From NCBI GenBank assembly GCA_015058955.1, contig SVBJ01000021.1, positions 1 to 33,926 on the forward strand: DNA of 33,926 nucleotides. Direction: 5' to 3'. Source of the DNA: Erysipelotrichaceae bacterium. GTDB taxonomy: Bacteria; Bacillota_I; Bacilli_A; Erysipelotrichales; Erysipelotrichaceae. The notes under the pieces were generated by a model. The model saw only the letters and a list, made by a program, of their open reading frames with translations. It had not been told where the DNA came from and did not search any database. Positions 3,770 to 18,175 of the stretch are shown in pieces (the stretch's first letter is position 1; each line of letters opens with the position of its first letter). The position numbers were made by a program, and so were the translations under genes.

Positions 3770-4377
3770 AATATGAATATGATACTGTACTGCAGGTCAT
3801 GGATGATGGCGGTGGCTATGTTGTTTTTCCCTGGGATGTAAAGAAGGAATTCGGCAAGGGACGTGTAAAGGTTCATGCTGAATTTGACGGTATTCCCTAT
3901 GACGGCAGCATTGTCAACATGGGAGTAAGGAATCCTGACGGATCGGTATGCTATATGATAGGAGTACTGAAATCAATAAGAAATACACTGAAAAAAGGCA
4001 ATGGAGATATGATCCATGTCTGCATTGAGCAGCATGAAATGACGATTCGGGAATACATAGCTAAACAGGATGAGGAGATAAAACCTCGTTTAGTTCAAAT
4101 ATATGAAACGATAAGGAATGCCATCCCGGATGTTGAAGAACGATACTCGTATGGGATGCCGACTTTCTGGAAAGGGCATAACATCATTCACTTCGCGACA
4201 ATGAAGAATCACACAGGCATTTATCCGGGTCCGGAGGCTATCGAAGCTTTTAGTGATAAGCTTGGCAGCTATAGTACCAGCAAGGGAGCAATTCAGTTTC
4301 CAAATGACAGAGAGATTCCTCTGGAACTGATAGCTGAGATAGCGACCTGGTGTTACTTGAAATATGGAAAACAGTAG
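3766..4377 (+). CDS. DUF1905-DUF1801 two-domain protein
   Basis: This 203-residue protein joins two small domains. Residues 1 to about 88 look like DUF1905 (beta-barrel; [14 protein letters not shown] and the [17 protein letters not shown] end). Residues 90-203 look like DUF1801/YdhG ([20 protein letters not shown], then [10 protein letters not shown] and the late [13 protein letters not shown]), a frataxin-like fold. Both are uncharacterised and often occur together or in small operons. The start overlaps the DUF2200 stop and has an internal GGAGAAG site. I know of no established role. Confidence 0.85.
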
Positions 4378-4408
4378 TGTAAATGTAAATGGCAAATAAA
4401 TATGGCAA

Positions 4409-4424
4409 TACTTTAAGTAAAGTA
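4409..4424. promoter_or_regulatory. Palindrome upstream of the MATE transporter gene
   Basis: TACTTTA (4409-4415) and TAAAGTA (4418-4424) form a 7-bp inverted repeat with a 2-base centre. It lies in the 96-base gap before the MATE gene, upstream of a possible -10 (TATAAC, 4447-4452) with no clear -35. Symmetry and position fit a repressor site. Confidence 0.4.
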
Positions 4425-4473
4425 AAAAATCGTATTTATGGCCAACTATAACAGATAATTTCAGGAGCAGATA

Positions 4474-6240
4474 ATGGAGAGAAACAATCTTGAGATCACC
4501 AGAAGAATAATGCTGACACTGCTGCCGATACAGGTCATTTTAGCCATGGCCGGGGCTGTTAACGGGCTGGTATCCAGCTACTTTGCCAGTAACTTTGTCG
4601 GAATCGAAGCCATGAGTGCGGTTGGTCTCTATGGCCCTGTCAGTATGTTTGTGGGCGCCATCGGTACCCTGACGGCAGGAGGATGTGCCATCATCTGCGG
4701 CAAGTATCTGGGCGCAAACCAGTTTGATAAGCTGCAGGAGATGTTTTCACTTGACCTGCTATTGGCCTTCATTGCTTCCGCTGTGCTGACCGGGTTGTTT
4801 GTCTTTCTGGGAATCAGCGATCTGACCGGCATCTTTACTCAGGACGCGACTCTTCGTCCGGTCTTCAATCAGTATCTGTTAGGACAGACGATCGGTATCA
4901 TGCCGCAGATGTTTGCCAGTCAGCTGCCGATGTTTCTGACCATGCAGAACAAGGGAAAGAATACAATGAGAGCCAGCGTTGTCTACATCATTGTCAATCT
5001 GGTCCTGAATTACTATTTTGTGGAAGTAAGAAAAATGGAAGCCTTTGGTCTGGCCCTGGCTTCTTCCCTGGGAATGTGGGTCTTCTTCATCATGGAACTG
5101 TATTATTTCCTGACTCCGGGTTCACAATTGAGGGTCAGACTGATGAAACCGGACTGGTCAGAAGCGAAAAGGATAATAACTACTGGACTTTCCGGGGCTT
5201 CCGGGTACATTTATCAGACTTTCAGAGGACTGGCTGTCAACAAGCTTCTGGAAATCCACGTCGGCAGCATGGGCATATCAGCCTTTGCTGCGGCCAATAA
5301 CCTGCTGGGGATCTTCTGGGCCATTCCGGGAGGAATGCTGGCTGTTTCCCGCATGCAGATGTCCGTGGCAGTCGGCGAGGAAGACCGTCAGACTCTGGGT
5401 GACATCACCCGTGTAATGTTCCGCACTTATCTGCCGATGATGGCAGCAGTGGTTGGGGGGATCATTCTTGGTTCAGGTTTCCTGTCAGGACTGTTCTTCA
5501 ATGGTCCTGAGATTGCAGCTTATGGAATGATGAAGGCATGTCTGCAGATAATTCCGCTGTGCATGCCGTTAAGTATCATCTGTGCTCATTTCAACTGCTA
5601 CGCTCAGATACTAGACAGGACGCGGTTTGGTGAGATCATGTCGGCACTGGACGGGCTGATCTGTGTTGCCGGTTTCTCCTGGCTGCTGACGGCCAGTATG
5701 GGAATCGCCGGTGTAGCCTGGGCCAATGTTCTTAATGGGATAGTTACGACTCTGTTTGTCATCGGTTATTCACGGTATCGCAACAGACACCTGCCGAAAA
5801 ACGTTGAAGAACTGATGGTAATACCTGAGGACTTTGGAGCCAGTGAAGATGAAAGAATGGACATTACCGTGGATACGATTGAAGAAGTGGTCCAGCTGTC
5901 ACAGCAGATCCAGCAGTTCTGCAGGGACAGGGGCATTGATGAAAAGCGTTCCTATCTTTCTGCCCTGGCTCTGGAAGAGATGGCCGGGGTCATTGTTCTG
6001 GAAGGGTTTGTCAAGGACAGTAAAAAGCATTCCATCTACGTACGAGTCGTGCATAAGGATGATAATGTGATCCTGCGCATCAAGGATGACTGTCAGCCTT
6101 TCAATCCTGAAGAAAGAAAACAGCTGACGGAAAACGAAGACATTACCAAGAACATCGGTATCAGAATGATATACAAGATTCTTAAGGACATAGATTACAG
6201 ATATCTGTTCGGCATCAATGTGCTGACAATGAAGATATAG
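4474..6240 (+). CDS. MATE-family transporter fused to a GHKL/anti-sigma-type ATPase domain
   Basis: Residues 1 to about 440 are a MATE (multi antimicrobial extrusion) transporter with about 12 hydrophobic helices; it probably exports a small cationic compound using an ion gradient. Residues 460-588 are a cytoplasmic HATPase domain of the anti-sigma-factor/serine kinase type (COG2172-like): LALEEMAG at 498-505, DDCQPFNP at 538-545, and the NIGIRMIYK lid around 560-568. This fusion recurs in clostridial-type bacteria. The N-box residue usually Asn is Val506 here, so nucleotide binding may be weak or lost. The ribosome site is CAGGAG. A methyltransferase follows after 19 bases. The substrate and the purpose of the C-terminal domain are unknown. 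Confidence 0.9.
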   Translation: MERNNLEITRRIMLTLLPIQVILAMAGAVNGLVSSYFASNFVGIEAMSAVGLYGPVSMFVGAIGTLTAGGCAIICGKYLGANQFDKLQEMFSLDLLLAFIASAVLTGLFVFLGISDLTGIFTQDATLRPVFNQYLLGQTIGIMPQMFASQLPMFLTMQNKGKNTMRASVVYIIVNLVLNYYFVEVRKMEAFGLALASSLGMWVFFIMELYYFLTPGSQLRVRLMKPDWSEAKRIITTGLSGASGYIYQTFRGLAVNKLLEIHVGSMGISAFAAANNLLGIFWAIPGGMLAVSRMQMSVAVGEEDRQTLGDITRVMFRTYLPMMAAVVGGIILGSGFLSGLFFNGPEIAAYGMMKACLQIIPLCMPLSIICAHFNCYAQILDRTRFGEIMSALDGLICVAGFSWLLTASMGIAGVAWANVLNGIVTTLFVIGYSRYRNRHLPKNVEELMVIPEDFGASEDERMDITVDTIEEVVQLSQQIQQFCRDRGIDEKRSYLSALALEEMAGVIVLEGFVKDSKKHSIYVRVVHKDDNVILRIKDDCQPFNPEERKQLTENEDITKNIGIRMIYKILKDIDYRYLFGINVLTMKI

Positions 6241-9647: not shown

Positions 9648-10877
9648 TCAGAATAATGATGGTTTTTCCTCGCGGTGTGACTTTATGTATCTGCTCCACT
9701 TGATGTAGCCGTAAGTCGTATTGGTAAAGTAACCAAGCTTGAGGATCAGCAGTACATACTGTCCGGAGATCACGTTGATGATGGCTTCCAGCAGGGCACA
9801 GGCATACCAGGCGATCCACTGTTCTCTTAAGCGGAAGAAGATGAACAGACCGTTGGCAACACCGACGGCTGAAGCACAGGCATCGATGTAGATTACGGCT
9901 GTTTCCAGTGACTTCGTATTGAAGAAATCGGTTCTGATGTCAAGTCCGCTGAGGAAGTATCCCACGACAAGAGTCCATACGGCGATCCCGGCCAGTACCA
10001 GCAGTTCCTGCCAGCCTTTCAGTCTTCTGACCATTGTCAGCTCATCCTCGTTGTCATCCAGATGCCTGGTCCAGTTGATGTAGCTGAGAATGTCGATAGG
10101 CAGCCAGAAGAACAGGGTAGTAACCATGGTGGCAAATCTGTACATCAAGACAATGCAGATGACGATCTCAGTGATCTCAACCAGCACGGATACTAAGAAG
10201 TTGTAGCGTGACTGCTTGGAAATCAGCAGTTCACACAGAATGTTCAGGAAGGTATCCAACAGATACAGCAGCATGATGACAACACCGTTGACACCGTTGG
10301 CGCTTTCCTCCGGGAACAGCACCGCGAATATGGTTGCCAGAACCATGATCGAGACAAACCATACCTTTTCATAGGTTGTAAAGAAAGTTGAAAACAGAGT
10401 TACGATCGCAACGGAGAGTACCAGTATGATCAGGGCGTTTCCCAGATTGAATACCGGCATCATCTTTTCAGCCTGAACATTGCGGTAGGTGGCCGTTATC
10501 TGCTGAAGTGACGGGTCACTCTGCGGGAAAAACAGCCTGGTTCCGTCAGAGGTTTCATAACCGTAGGCGGTAATGCTGTCAGATTGGAGCTGTTCGTATT
10601 CTTCATAACTGTAGGAGACAGTCAGTGAATCCTCACCGTTGGTGTAAATTACGTCACATACGGTATAGTCCTCATCATAGTCTTCCCGCTGGCGGTCTCT
10701 AACCATTTCAATGCTTCCAAGTGAACGTATGTCTCCCGGCTTGCGGTTGAGCTGGGAAAGACCGGTTATGAAACTGAACAGGATCCCGGCCCGTAACAGA
10801 AACAGTACAGCTGTTTCAGCTGTACGGATCTTCTTATTCGGTTCAATAAAAGACTTAATGCGTTCGGTAATATTCAT
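9648..10877 (-). CDS. PnuC-like vitamin/nucleoside transporter with N-terminal extension
   Basis: This 409-residue membrane protein resembles PnuC (NMN/nicotinamide riboside transporters) from about residue 165 on: FFWLPIDILSYINW (256-269), REQWIAWYACALLEAI (351-366) and NTTYGYIKWSRY (386-397). Usual PnuC length is about 200-260 residues. Here about 140 extra residues come first: one helix (21-40), a polar region of about 100 residues (41-140) rich in acidic and aromatic residues, and another helix (142-162). The ATG at 10877 is chosen because GGTGG lies just upstream and a good promoter (10890-10918) sits directly before it; a longer reading frame to 10931 would begin upstream of that promoter. 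Substrate uncertain. Confidence 0.75.
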   Translation of the reverse strand: MNITERIKSFIEPNKKIRTAETAVLFLLRAGILFSFITGLSQLNRKPGDIRSLGSIEMVRDRQREDYDEDYTVCDVIYTNGEDSLTVSYSYEEYEQLQSDSITAYGYETSDGTRLFFPQSDPSLQQITATYRNVQAEKMMPVFNLGNALIILVLSVAIVTLFSTFFTTYEKVWFVSIMVLATIFAVLFPEESANGVNGVVIMLLYLLDTFLNILCELLISKQSRYNFLVSVLVEITEIVICIVLMYRFATMVTTLFFWLPIDILSYINWTRHLDDNEDELTMVRRLKGWQELLVLAGIAVWTLVVGYFLSGLDIRTDFFNTKSLETAVIYIDACASAVGVANGLFIFFRLREQWIAWYACALLEAIINVISGQYVLLILKLGYFTNTTYGYIKWSRYIKSHREEKPSLF

Positions 10878-10889
10878 TTTCACCACCAT

Positions 10890-10918
10890 ATTGTAATGAA
10901 AAAACAGTACATATTCAA
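10890..10918 (-). promoter_or_regulatory. Sigma-A promoter of the PnuC-like gene
   Basis: Minus strand: TTGAAT (10918-10913), 17-base spacer, TACAAT (10895-10890). It decides the start codon of the gene at 9648-10877. Confidence 0.7.
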
Positions 10919-10935
10919 GGAAAAGCCTCACTCTC

Positions 10936-12111: not shown

Positions 12112-12142
12112 TGCTAGAATATAAATAACGGAACAGTGTTCC
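12112..12142 (+). promoter_or_regulatory. Extended -10 promoter with downstream palindromic operator
   Basis: TGCTAGAAT (12112-12120) is an extended -10 with one change. Ten bases downstream, at the expected transcription start, lies a perfect palindrome GGAACA-G-TGTTCC (12130-12142). This placement fits a repressor of the TetR type. The spacing (N3 between GGAAC and GTTCC) differs from the Bacillus LexA box (CGAAC-N4-GTTCG). Confidence 0.55.
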
Positions 12143-12163: not shown

Positions 12164-14812
12164 ATGAAAAAAGCATTTAGTATCAGAAAAATACTGGCAG
12201 TAGTATTTGCCGTGCTGATCTGCATGAGCTCTTTCAGCATGAGAGCATTTGCCGAGGAACAGCCTGATGAGGATAAGGAAGGTTTCATCGTAGAAACCCA
12301 TTTTGACGTCAGTACGACCGGAAAACAGGGTACCTGGGACTTCAAGTACAATGACCGCTGGTTCAAGCAGTCAGCTACCGTTTACAACCATAATCTGGCC
12401 AGACTTTCCCTGGGCATGGCTCTGTCGGCATTCCGTCCGAATCTGGACCCGGATGGCAAGGAGAATCCGGCACTGCATCTGCAGAATTTCCTGAAGACCT
12501 GCCGTTTCAAGGATCTCAGAACGGATGACTATGACAAGAATCCGTCTCTGTATACCGTTTCAACCGTAATTGCCCACAAGCATCTTACTGATGATGAGGG
12601 TGATTTTGAACTGCTGGTTGTCGGTGTCTGCGGCGGTGGTTACCAGAATGAATGGATGTCAAACTTCAGCTGCGGTGATGACAGGATCCATCTTGGCTTC
12701 CTTTCCGCGGCTGAAGAAGTATATGACCGCCTGTTTGGCTACATTGCAGGTCATGGCCTGACCGGACAGCGCATCAAGGTCTGGGTATCCGGTTTCTCCC
12801 GTGCCGGAGCAATCACCAATATCTTCTCCAAGCTGCTGGTAGACAGCGATGTGCTTGACAGTGATTCGGTCTATGCCTATACCTTTGCAACCCCGAGAAC
12901 GACCAGAGAGCACATTGAAGGTGACTATCCTAACATTTACAACATCTGCGGCAAGATGGACCCGGTTCCTCAGCTTGCCTTCGCTGACTGGGGATTTGAC
13001 CGTTACGGTACGACTTTATACACCCCATCTCAGCAGACCGACAGTGATTACAACATCAAGTCTGCCAGAGCCAATCAGGTTCATGAGAAAAACTTCGGGC
13101 TGAAGTTCTTTAATAACGTAGAATGGGATACCAAGCTCAGAGTAATTCTGAACTACGTGCTCAAGATCGCTCCAACCAGCAAGATCTATAAGAACCACAT
13201 TCAGGACTATGCTGTCAGAATGTGGGAGAACAAGTCTCTTTCCAACATCATGACCTGTCTGATGGAACTGGCCGGTGATAAGGAACTGATCACTGACGAA
13301 AACAAAACGGAAGCCAACAGCATGCTGACATATCTGGCTTATACTATCTATGGCTTTGCGACCAAGTCAGACGTTGAATCGCAATATCGCAGTGATGATT
13401 CCACCCTTGTCGGTAACCTGGCCAGGGAGCATACACCGGAAGTTTATCTGTCCTGGATGTATTCAACCGATGATCCGGAAGAACTGTTCTCTGATTCAAT
13501 GAACTATGTCAGAATGGTCGTAGAAGGTGACGTGGATGTCGGAATAATCAGTTATGGCGTTAACTATGGCCTGGCCAAGTGCATGCTTGCTGACGGAACC
13601 ACAGCTAACGAGATGAAATACGGCACCGTGGAGATGGAAAAGGATGACCCGTTTGCTCCGGACATCTTCATGGCCCGAAACAAGGGACAGACCATCGTGC
13701 TGCTGCCAAAGGACCGCAACTACGGCATTGTCATCAAGTCTAATGCCAGTCAGAGAATTGAAGTGCACGGCATACCTCTGACGGTTGGCTTTACCAATAA
13801 CAATTTCAATAAGATGCATTATGCCAATCTGGAAAAGGATGAATATGACATCATTTTCTCGGCAGCCTCTGATTACATTTATACCAACGATGATAACAGT
13901 GATATTGTCACCGGAGATACCTTTGATGTTGTTGATGTTTCCATCGATACCTCATCAGAACTGGCTATCGCGTTGGAAAAGGTCAACTTCCTCAATCTGG
14001 GCTGGCGACCGCTGGTCATAATAACCTATACCATTCCAATTGTTCTGATCAATCTGCTGCTCTGTCTGATTGCCTGGGGCATCGGTTCCCATCGAATCAG
14101 CAGAAGAAAGAGGGCAGGACTGACGGCACAGCATGTCAGGTATGACCGCCGTCCGGCAGCCTGCATTTTCGCAGTATTTACTCTGTTCATGATTCAGGAA
14201 CTGATCTACTGGCTGATGCCTGACTACATGCATGAAAGAGCGATCATGAAGCTTGTCATAGGCGTTCTGTTAATGTATCTGTGCTATCGCGGTCTCTCCA
14301 GACAGCCGTCTGAACTCAGCACCAAGCTGCTGGTAGCCTTATGCATCTGCACTGCCGGTGACATGACCATCAACTTCAGCTTCGTGGGAAGCATGGTGAT
14401 GTTCGGGGCTGCGGAAGCCATATTGACTTATCAGTTCACCAGATATGAAAAACCGGAGAAATGGCAGTATGCCCTGTGGGCATTGGGCAGCTTTGCCGCT
14501 GTGGTGATCATCTATCTGAATACTGCTCTGAAAAATGACATGAAGTATTCCATGGTGGCCTACAGTGTCATTCTGATGGCCATGGTAGCAGCATCCCTGA
14601 CCATGCCTAAGAGGATCCGCTCCGGAGCTATTCTGATGGCTGTTTCCAATATTCTGCTGTTCATCAATGAAGTCTCTACCAAGAAACTGCTGATCCACAT
14701 ACTGTCATTAGGCATTTATTATCTGGCCATGGGTTTCTTTGCCTACGCTACCAGATATAAGGTGGTCACACCGGCCAAAGACGGTACGGCCGCAGAGGTC
14801 GAAGTTTCATAG
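12164..14812 (+). CDS. Lipase-like ectodomain fused to YhhN/TMEM86-like membrane domain
   Basis: This 882-residue protein starts with a signal sequence (1-30). Residues about 55-310 look like a class-3-type alpha/beta hydrolase: GFSRAG with Ser212, TFATPR, KMDPVPQL with Asp266, and His307 as triad candidates. Residues 310-590 are extracellular and unrecognised. From about 615 there are eight or nine helices; the last six (722-865) follow the YhhN/TMEM86 lysoplasmalogenase pattern with AGD (Asp733), AYSVILMAMVAASL, the GAI-x-MAVSNILLF segment and IYYLAMGFFAY. The usual SD of the second motif is SN here (Asn829). Neither ATG 12164 nor the upstream GTG 12155 has a ribosome site; I use the ATG since the signal peptide starts there. 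The YhhN call is a pattern match, not a computed one. Confidence 0.75.
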   Translation: MKKAFSIRKILAVVFAVLICMSSFSMRAFAEEQPDEDKEGFIVETHFDVSTTGKQGTWDFKYNDRWFKQSATVYNHNLARLSLGMALSAFRPNLDPDGKENPALHLQNFLKTCRFKDLRTDDYDKNPSLYTVSTVIAHKHLTDDEGDFELLVVGVCGGGYQNEWMSNFSCGDDRIHLGFLSAAEEVYDRLFGYIAGHGLTGQRIKVWVSGFSRAGAITNIFSKLLVDSDVLDSDSVYAYTFATPRTTREHIEGDYPNIYNICGKMDPVPQLAFADWGFDRYGTTLYTPSQQTDSDYNIKSARANQVHEKNFGLKFFNNVEWDTKLRVILNYVLKIAPTSKIYKNHIQDYAVRMWENKSLSNIMTCLMELAGDKELITDENKTEANSMLTYLAYTIYGFATKSDVESQYRSDDSTLVGNLAREHTPEVYLSWMYSTDDPEELFSDSMNYVRMVVEGDVDVGIISYGVNYGLAKCMLADGTTANEMKYGTVEMEKDDPFAPDIFMARNKGQTIVLLPKDRNYGIVIKSNASQRIEVHGIPLTVGFTNNNFNKMHYANLEKDEYDIIFSAASDYIYTNDDNSDIVTGDTFDVVDVSIDTSSELAIALEKVNFLNLGWRPLVIITYTIPIVLINLLLCLIAWGIGSHRISRRKRAGLTAQHVRYDRRPAACIFAVFTLFMIQELIYWLMPDYMHERAIMKLVIGVLLMYLCYRGLSRQPSELSTKLLVALCICTAGDMTINFSFVGSMVMFGAAEAILTYQFTRYEKPEKWQYALWALGSFAAVVIIYLNTALKNDMKYSMVAYSVILMAMVAASLTMPKRIRSGAILMAVSNILLFINEVSTKKLLIHILSLGIYYLAMGFFAYATRYKVVTPAKDGTAAEVEVS

Positions 14813-14823
14813 TTTACGATCTG

Positions 14824-14848
14824 GAACCAGGTTGCACTGGTTCTTTTT
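14824..14848 (+). terminator. Rho-independent terminator
   Basis: GAACCAG (14824-14830), loop GTTGCA, CTGGTTC (14837-14843), T-run. Confidence 0.85.
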
Positions 14849-17274: not shown

Positions 17275-18175
17275 ATCTGTTCAGGTATTCTCTTAAACTG
17301 TCCAGAGAGGCCAGGGCGTCATTGTAACCAAGCCAGTAGAGGTCACCGAGTTTTTCAATGTCGGATTCCACACGGCTGACCGTCACTTGCTGACTTGGAG
17401 CCATGACATACAGTCTGCCTTCCTTTTCCAGTACTTCCAGTTCATCACACTGGGCATTGTAGGCTGCCGGAGAATTATCCAGCTTTTCAGCAAAGGCCTG
17501 ATGATTGATATATATGCGGTGGGCCGGCTTTCGGTCGCTGACCTTTTTTCTGAAGCCGTTTTCACGGGTCTTGATGACCACTACCTTTTCATAGCCCTGA
17601 TCAAGAGCCCACTGATAAGGGATCTTGCAGCTGGATCCACCATCGAGACAGTAGATGCCGTCAACGTTGACCATCGGTGAAACAAACGGCATGGTAGCTG
17701 AAGCCTTAATGGCATCAAAGATGTTGCCGCAATAGTCTCTGTCAAAATAGAGAGTATCACCGTTGGAACAGTTGGTGCAGACCGCCACGAATCTTCTGCG
17801 TGGATCAAAGAACTTTCTGATGTTTATCAGTTCAATGGAATTATAGTCCTTTAACAGGAAATCCAGGTTGATCAGACTGTGAGCCTTTCTTACTGATTTG
17901 ACTCCGATGTAATAGGAATTGTGACGGTAGGTCAGATTGGCACGGGCACTGCGTCCGATGTTTCCGGACACGTAGTTCATTCCGGCCATGGCCCCCGCTG
18001 AGGTTCCCACGACGCATTGGAAGTTTATGTCATTAAGCATGAAGGCATCCAGAACTCCCTGGGTGTAAAGACCGCGGAAGGCACCGCCTTCCAGAACCAG
18101 ACATCCTTCGGTTATCTTGTCAGAAGCACTTCCGGCTGGAATTTTATCTATACCTGAATATACATTTGTACTCAT
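17273..18175 (-). CDS. Patatin-like phospholipase
   Basis: This 300-residue protein has the patatin fold marks: oxyanion loop GGAFRG (30-35), nucleophile elbow GTSAG with Ser59, and the dyad Asp178 in LDGG. It resembles the bacterial YjjU/RssA-type group and would be a cytoplasmic serine acyl hydrolase on phospholipids or lysophospholipids. No signal peptide is present. Strong ribosome site GGCAGGAGG; the same bases could pair in a short hairpin (TGCC/GGCA) in the leader. It is a single gene with its own extended -10 promoter and shares a terminator with the nucleoside hydrolase. Confidence 0.92.
   Translation of the reverse strand: MSTNVYSGIDKIPAGSASDKITEGCLVLEGGAFRGLYTQGVLDAFMLNDINFQCVVGTSAGAMAGMNYVSGNIGRSARANLTYRHNSYYIGVKSVRKAHSLINLDFLLKDYNSIELINIRKFFDPRRRFVAVCTNCSNGDTLYFDRDYCGNIFDAIKASATMPFVSPMVNVDGIYCLDGGSSCKIPYQWALDQGYEKVVVIKTRENGFRKKVSDRKPAHRIYINHQAFAEKLDNSPAAYNAQCDELEVLEKEGRLYVMAPSQQVTVSRVESDIEKLGDLYWLGYNDALASLDSLREYLNR

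Follow-up and report, generated by a model that had tools for sequence, protein, structure and literature searches.

What does a bacterium gain by placing a lipase and a relative of the lysoplasmalogenases in the same polypeptide? This question is raised by an open reading frame at positions 12164–14812 (+) of the window, as we refer to the whole 33,926-nucleotide stretch of Erysipelotrichaceae DNA that was analysed. A sequence-only reading had interpreted the product as a secreted lipase-like domain fused to a YhhN/TMEM86-like membrane domain and had proposed two successive steps within one chain: the lipase would generate a lysoplasmalogen, which the YhhN domain would then cleave to release an aldehyde.

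A lipase and a YhhN domain in one chain

The coordinates and reading frame assigned earlier are right: the frame begins with an ATG at 12164, its stop ends at 14812, and it encodes 882 aa, with an in-frame GTG located 9 bases upstream of the ATG. An intrinsic terminator (14823–14844, +) lies directly 3' of the gene, and a comparison of 21 loci yielded no conserved neighbour genes or operon partner. Based upon this terminator and the unconserved neighbours, the fusion gene looks like a monocistronic, single-gene unit. The start codon is preceded by a -10-like sequence and, between the two, by the palindrome GGAACAGTGTTCC (12130–12142), the sole perfect copy in the genome, which is absent from the checked relatives except for one near-identical uncultured Firmicutes MAG and is possibly an operator. 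Close to the fusion gene, a patatin-like phospholipase with DUF6363 is encoded at 17276–18175 (-); elsewhere in the window, 9651–10931 (-) encodes an NMN transporter (PF04973) in which approximately 220 residues without assignment precede the domain.

When 273 genomes of the bacterium's family were searched, the fused protein was encountered in about 58 of them, mostly whole-length and without stops, and apart from the near-identical MAG these relatives are 29–62% identical to the 882-aa protein. In Pfam, Lipase_3 is matched by all 27 aligned fused proteins and YhhN by 25 of the 27. The proposed union of a secreted lipase with a YhhN membrane domain on a single polypeptide is real and conserved. 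In a few genomes (G076, G130 and G231), the halves are found on two frames or are cut by a contig end. A chance or miscalled fusion, a frameshift and an assembly artefact were all ruled out, as many independent assemblies carry the fusion. Its distribution is narrow: a profile search covering 316 order-level genomes found it confined to this family, and a phylum-wide sample of 392 genomes contained the lipase part in other places but no fusion outside the family. The architecture had been unfamiliar to the sequence-only reading, and we likewise found no paper in the searched literature that treats YhhN, lipase and fusion together. Both parts belong to known families; within the papers searched, their combination had no earlier description.

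The exported portion and its putative catalytic triad

As proposed, the protein starts with an N-terminal signal. Residues 1–30 (MKKAF...AFA; 12164–12253, +) include a hydrophobic stretch at 10–28 and a model helix at 2–22, and the relatives start with the same type of signal sequence. A class-3 lipase alpha/beta-hydrolase domain with a helical insert comprises residues 40–445 (12281–13498, +), within which residues 170–274 match Lipase_3 (PF01764) in Pfam with 38.1 bits, above the curated cut-off of 22 and well past chance (E 1.7e-9). In the predicted structure (mean pLDDT 80.5), this domain matches PDB folds of fungal lipases and plant PLA1 (Z 15–16 over 212–256 residues, rmsd about 4), with the match extending to model residue 431–444. 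Lipases and A1-type enzymes make up most of its fold neighbours, among them phospholipases A1 and mono/diacylglycerol lipases. A beta-rich ectodomain follows at residues 447–596 (13502–13951, +; DSSP strands 447–591); it has no Pfam match and, with a mean pair identity of 23%, is the least conserved folded part of the protein.

Two of the three catalytic residues named earlier hold up in this comparison. Ser212, the nucleophile in a GxSxG-type motif (GFSRA; 12797–12799, +), is present in 59 of the 60 fused sequences that are readable at this column and also in distant lipases, while Asp266, the catalytic acid (12959–12961, +), is present in 61 of 61. The third, His307, is ruled out by conservation, since the position is Tyr in 24 of 31 aligned relatives; conserved instead is His423 of an H-T-P-E-x-Y motif (13430–13432, +), which is shared by all 61 fused sequences readable at this column and by almost every distant stand-alone lipase from other families. 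In fungal lipases and plant PLA1, the catalytic His sits towards the C-terminus of the fold, and the location of His423 at that end of the fold match provides positional support for its role. Ser212, Asp266 and His423 would constitute a conserved catalytic triad in fold order, and the triad columns are conserved in the fused sequences, one paralogue excepted.

Two further lipase-like proteins deserve mention. A 1149-aa paralogue from the same genus (L117:3162–6608, +; G226:C12) combines lipase-like and YhhN parts with a C-terminal HAD phosphatase-like domain, the latter a weak match, and its lipase Ser is changed to Gly (GYGRA). The genome under study also encodes a 2311-aa lipase (L036:1–6933, -; G000:C13) with BspA-type leucine-rich repeats and three CW_binding_2 repeats, which is an alternative mode of surface display.

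Predicted topology of the membrane domain

In the second half of the proposed architecture, residues 693–856 match YhhN (PF07947) in Pfam with 49.2 bits, significantly (E 6.7e-13) and above the curated cut-off of 25.6. When predicted separately, the membrane part (pLDDT 92.6, pTM 0.87) consists of a long entry helix plus eight helices. The entry helix, TM0 (residues 614–651; 14003–14116, +), is predicted to run from outside to inside and leads into a K/R-rich cytoplasmic linker, after which the YhhN/TMEM86-like domain spans residues 663–861 (14150–14746, +), with support from Pfam, the predicted model and a profile-profile match to stand-alone YhhN proteins. Published YhhN proteins have eight helices (PMC9052158). 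The earlier estimate of eight or nine helices becomes a predicted nine in total, but the YhhN unit is a complete eight rather than the last six.

For M. tuberculosis YhhN, an N-in/C-in topology with substrate entry from the outside has been published (PMC9052158), and the eight-helix unit of the fusion is predicted to keep this orientation. The K/R-rich linker after TM0 and the loop charges, which agree with the predicted topology, place both the linker and the C-terminus inside. No solved structure matching the membrane domain by sequence was found. The matches from a fold search were all weak and rhodopsin/GPCR-like, with Z reaching 10 at most, and other families missing from these weak matches carry no evidential weight. 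The matches agree with the published YhhN model (PMC4602095) and may merely reflect a common helix arrangement.

Loss of two functional YhhN positions

If the membrane domain is a lysoplasmalogenase, its active site should be recognizable from TMEM86A/B, in which Ala substitution of eight conserved residues showed that every one except a glycine (G81/G87) matters: K43, D82, H104, G182, S189, D190 and Y213. TMEM86A D190A has <10% of activity left, and the His104 mutant is impaired too (PMC11994398). Mapped onto the fusion by alignment and profile-profile comparison, Lys43 and Asp82 are kept as Lys696 (14249–14251, +) and Asp733 (14360–14362, +), each in 59 of 62 fused sequences, and Tyr213 as Tyr852. 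Lost are His104 of helix 4, at whose position is Glu751 (14414–14416, +), and Asp190, at whose position is Asn829 (14648–14650, +): no fused sequence among the 62 has His at the former or Asp at the latter, where 51 have Gly, 9 Asn and 2 others. The sequence-only reading had already recognized Asn829 at the second conserved YhhN Asp and cautioned that the domain might have an altered chemistry or be no more than a lipid-binding anchor; with the Asp lost throughout the fused set and the helix-4 His as well, this caution has become its better-supported branch.

The stand-alone relatives are intact in comparison, with the helix-4 His kept in 31/31 canonical and 13/13 fused-like proteins and the second Asp in all 43 that have a letter there, in a set picked by profile score where motif-lacking proteins may be under-represented. 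The family thus also has stand-alone YhhN proteins whose motifs are complete, two of them (L003 and L004) encoded by the genome under study. In the tree, the fused YhhN domains form one clade (99/96) adjoining stand-alone proteins with both residues, so a single loss is enough to account for the pattern; most simply, His and Asp would have been lost once, at or near the fusion. YhhN genes also occur in other settings. One contig (L106; G134:C121) has three separate YhhN genes within 5 kb (177–863, +; 2131–2886, -; 4148–4882, +), and L111:2446–3909 (-) joins a YhhN-like domain, a weak match that stays under the cut-off, to an aminoglycoside-nucleotidyltransferase-like domain (PF10706).

It is conceivable that the altered domain still catalyses a reaction, by a different chemistry or on a different substrate, and acts in series with the lipase. 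Lys and Asp are retained together with a family-specific Glu679 and a nearly invariant His845, and 38 of the 62 fused sequences have a His located a helical turn ahead of the missing helix-4 His, for which it could substitute. This relocated His is missing in the 882-aa protein and its genus, however, and 61/62 fused sequences have no acidic substitute for Asp190 in the five residues around it. The 1149-aa paralogue, with its HAD phosphatase-like domain behind the membrane part, hints at multi-step processing, yet its lipase Ser is Gly, so the lipase does not act in series there. We consider such an enzyme decidedly unlikely.

Plasmalogens as a possible substrate

The loss of both the His104 and Asp190 equivalents in 62/62 also weighs against the two successive plasmalogen steps, even though the domains are of the right families. 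Furthermore, lysoplasmalogen formation needs sn-2 cleavage, whereas the lipase has fold neighbours that are largely lipases and A1-type phospholipases, and the genome already has stand-alone YhhN proteins with complete motifs. We also examined PF09989 as a proxy for PlsA-type plasmalogen synthase, for which the Lactococcus lactis and Thermotoga maritima controls match. It is absent from the genome carrying the gene and from eight congeners, nine genus genomes that are drafts and for which other plasmalogen routes are possible. Across the family it is present in 104/273 genomes, or 14/58 fused versus 90/215 other genomes (Fisher p 0.015, uncorrected for the genomes' kinship). Given that PF09989 is absent in the genus and rarer in fused genomes, self-made plasmalogens are unlikely to explain the fusion. 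Plasmalogens supplied by host or diet are a possible substrate, and the pocket seems to face the lipase side of the membrane, judging from the model, the loop charges and PMC9052158. Taking both sides together, a two-step plasmalogen enzyme appears very improbable.

Anchor, dock or sensor

What, then, does the membrane domain contribute? Its main rival to a lipid-pocket role is pure anchoring, in which any membrane segment would do and the pocket would have no role. This would be compatible with the two lost TMEM86 functional positions, with the display of another lipase of the same genome via cell-wall-binding repeats, and with a membrane domain that is less conserved than the lipase (mean pair identity of 36% vs 56%). 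However, the conservation that does exist is unevenly distributed. Among 27 sequences, entropy averages 1.95 bits over the YhhN domain, but is 0 at K696, H845 and Y853, 0.23 bits at D733 and Y800, and 0.38 bits at E679. Near-zero entropy at polar residues within the membrane is more than a plain anchor would need; these residues could also serve folding rather than ligand binding. Moreover, almost all relatives retain the full set of eight helices, with no shrinkage to one helix. An anchor and nothing else strikes us as rather unlikely.

We prefer, at slightly better than an even chance, an extracellular class-3 lipase/phospholipase tethered by a YhhN domain that is no longer a lysoplasmalogenase and serves as a lipid-binding or regulatory dock; both the lipase activity and the ligand binding are what we infer. 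The signal peptide would export residues 31–612, and Ser212-Asp266-His423 would hydrolyse a lipid acyl ester on the external surface of the cytoplasmic membrane. Through TM0 the chain would then enter the cytoplasm, such that the YhhN unit retains its N-in/C-in orientation. Without the helix-4 His and the second Asp, this unit would lack lysoplasmalogenase chemistry, whereas a polar pocket would be kept and partly re-made from Glu679, Lys696, Asp733, Tyr800, His845 and Tyr852/853, most of which are predicted to lie in the membrane half nearest the lipase. The unit would thus hold the lipase at the membrane and bind a lipid, be it substrate, released lysolipid/fatty acid, or a regulatory ligand. 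The membrane part descends from lysoplasmalogenases, and a remodelled mount for the lipase is a likelier role for it than that of a second enzyme. A more elaborate scenario, which we view as unlikely, is that the repurposed lysoplasmalogenase uses a GPCR-like lipid pocket of eight helices to sense or accept the lipase product and controls the lipase across the membrane. If true, the surface lipase would contain its own pseudoenzyme-type receptor or acceptor.

Comparison with known systems

With class-3 lipases (PF01764), such as Rhizomucor miehei lipase, mono/diacylglycerol lipases and the plant PLA1 AtDSEL (PDB 3tgl, 5xk2 and 7x0c), the fusion has in common the alpha/beta-hydrolase fold, the GxSxG Ser, the Asp and a late His, to which it adds a helical insert between Asp and His, the beta-rich domain and a C-terminal nine-helix membrane part. 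With YhhN/TMEM86 lysoplasmalogenases (PF07947; EC 3.3.2.2), as known from Legionella, M. tuberculosis (Rv1401) and human (TMEM86A/B), it has in common the eight-helix unit, the Lys of helix 2, the first Asp (helix 3) and the Tyr of helix 8, but it is without the helix-4 His and second Asp and is preceded by a secreted lipase and an entry helix. The nearest relatives of the fused membrane domain in the tree are stand-alone YhhN proteins of about 250 aa from the same family (L100, L103–L109 and others), which differ in that they are without a lipase and keep the His and both Asp. As such, the fusion represents a putative conserved surface lipase of one Bacillota family, and its approximately 60 members, with a YhhN active site altered apparently once, together with the lipase fusion, constitute a natural comparison set. 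This set should help to sort TMEM86/YhhN residues required for chemistry from those involved in lipid binding only. It likewise illustrates that a YhhN match alone should not lead to annotation as a lysoplasmalogenase.
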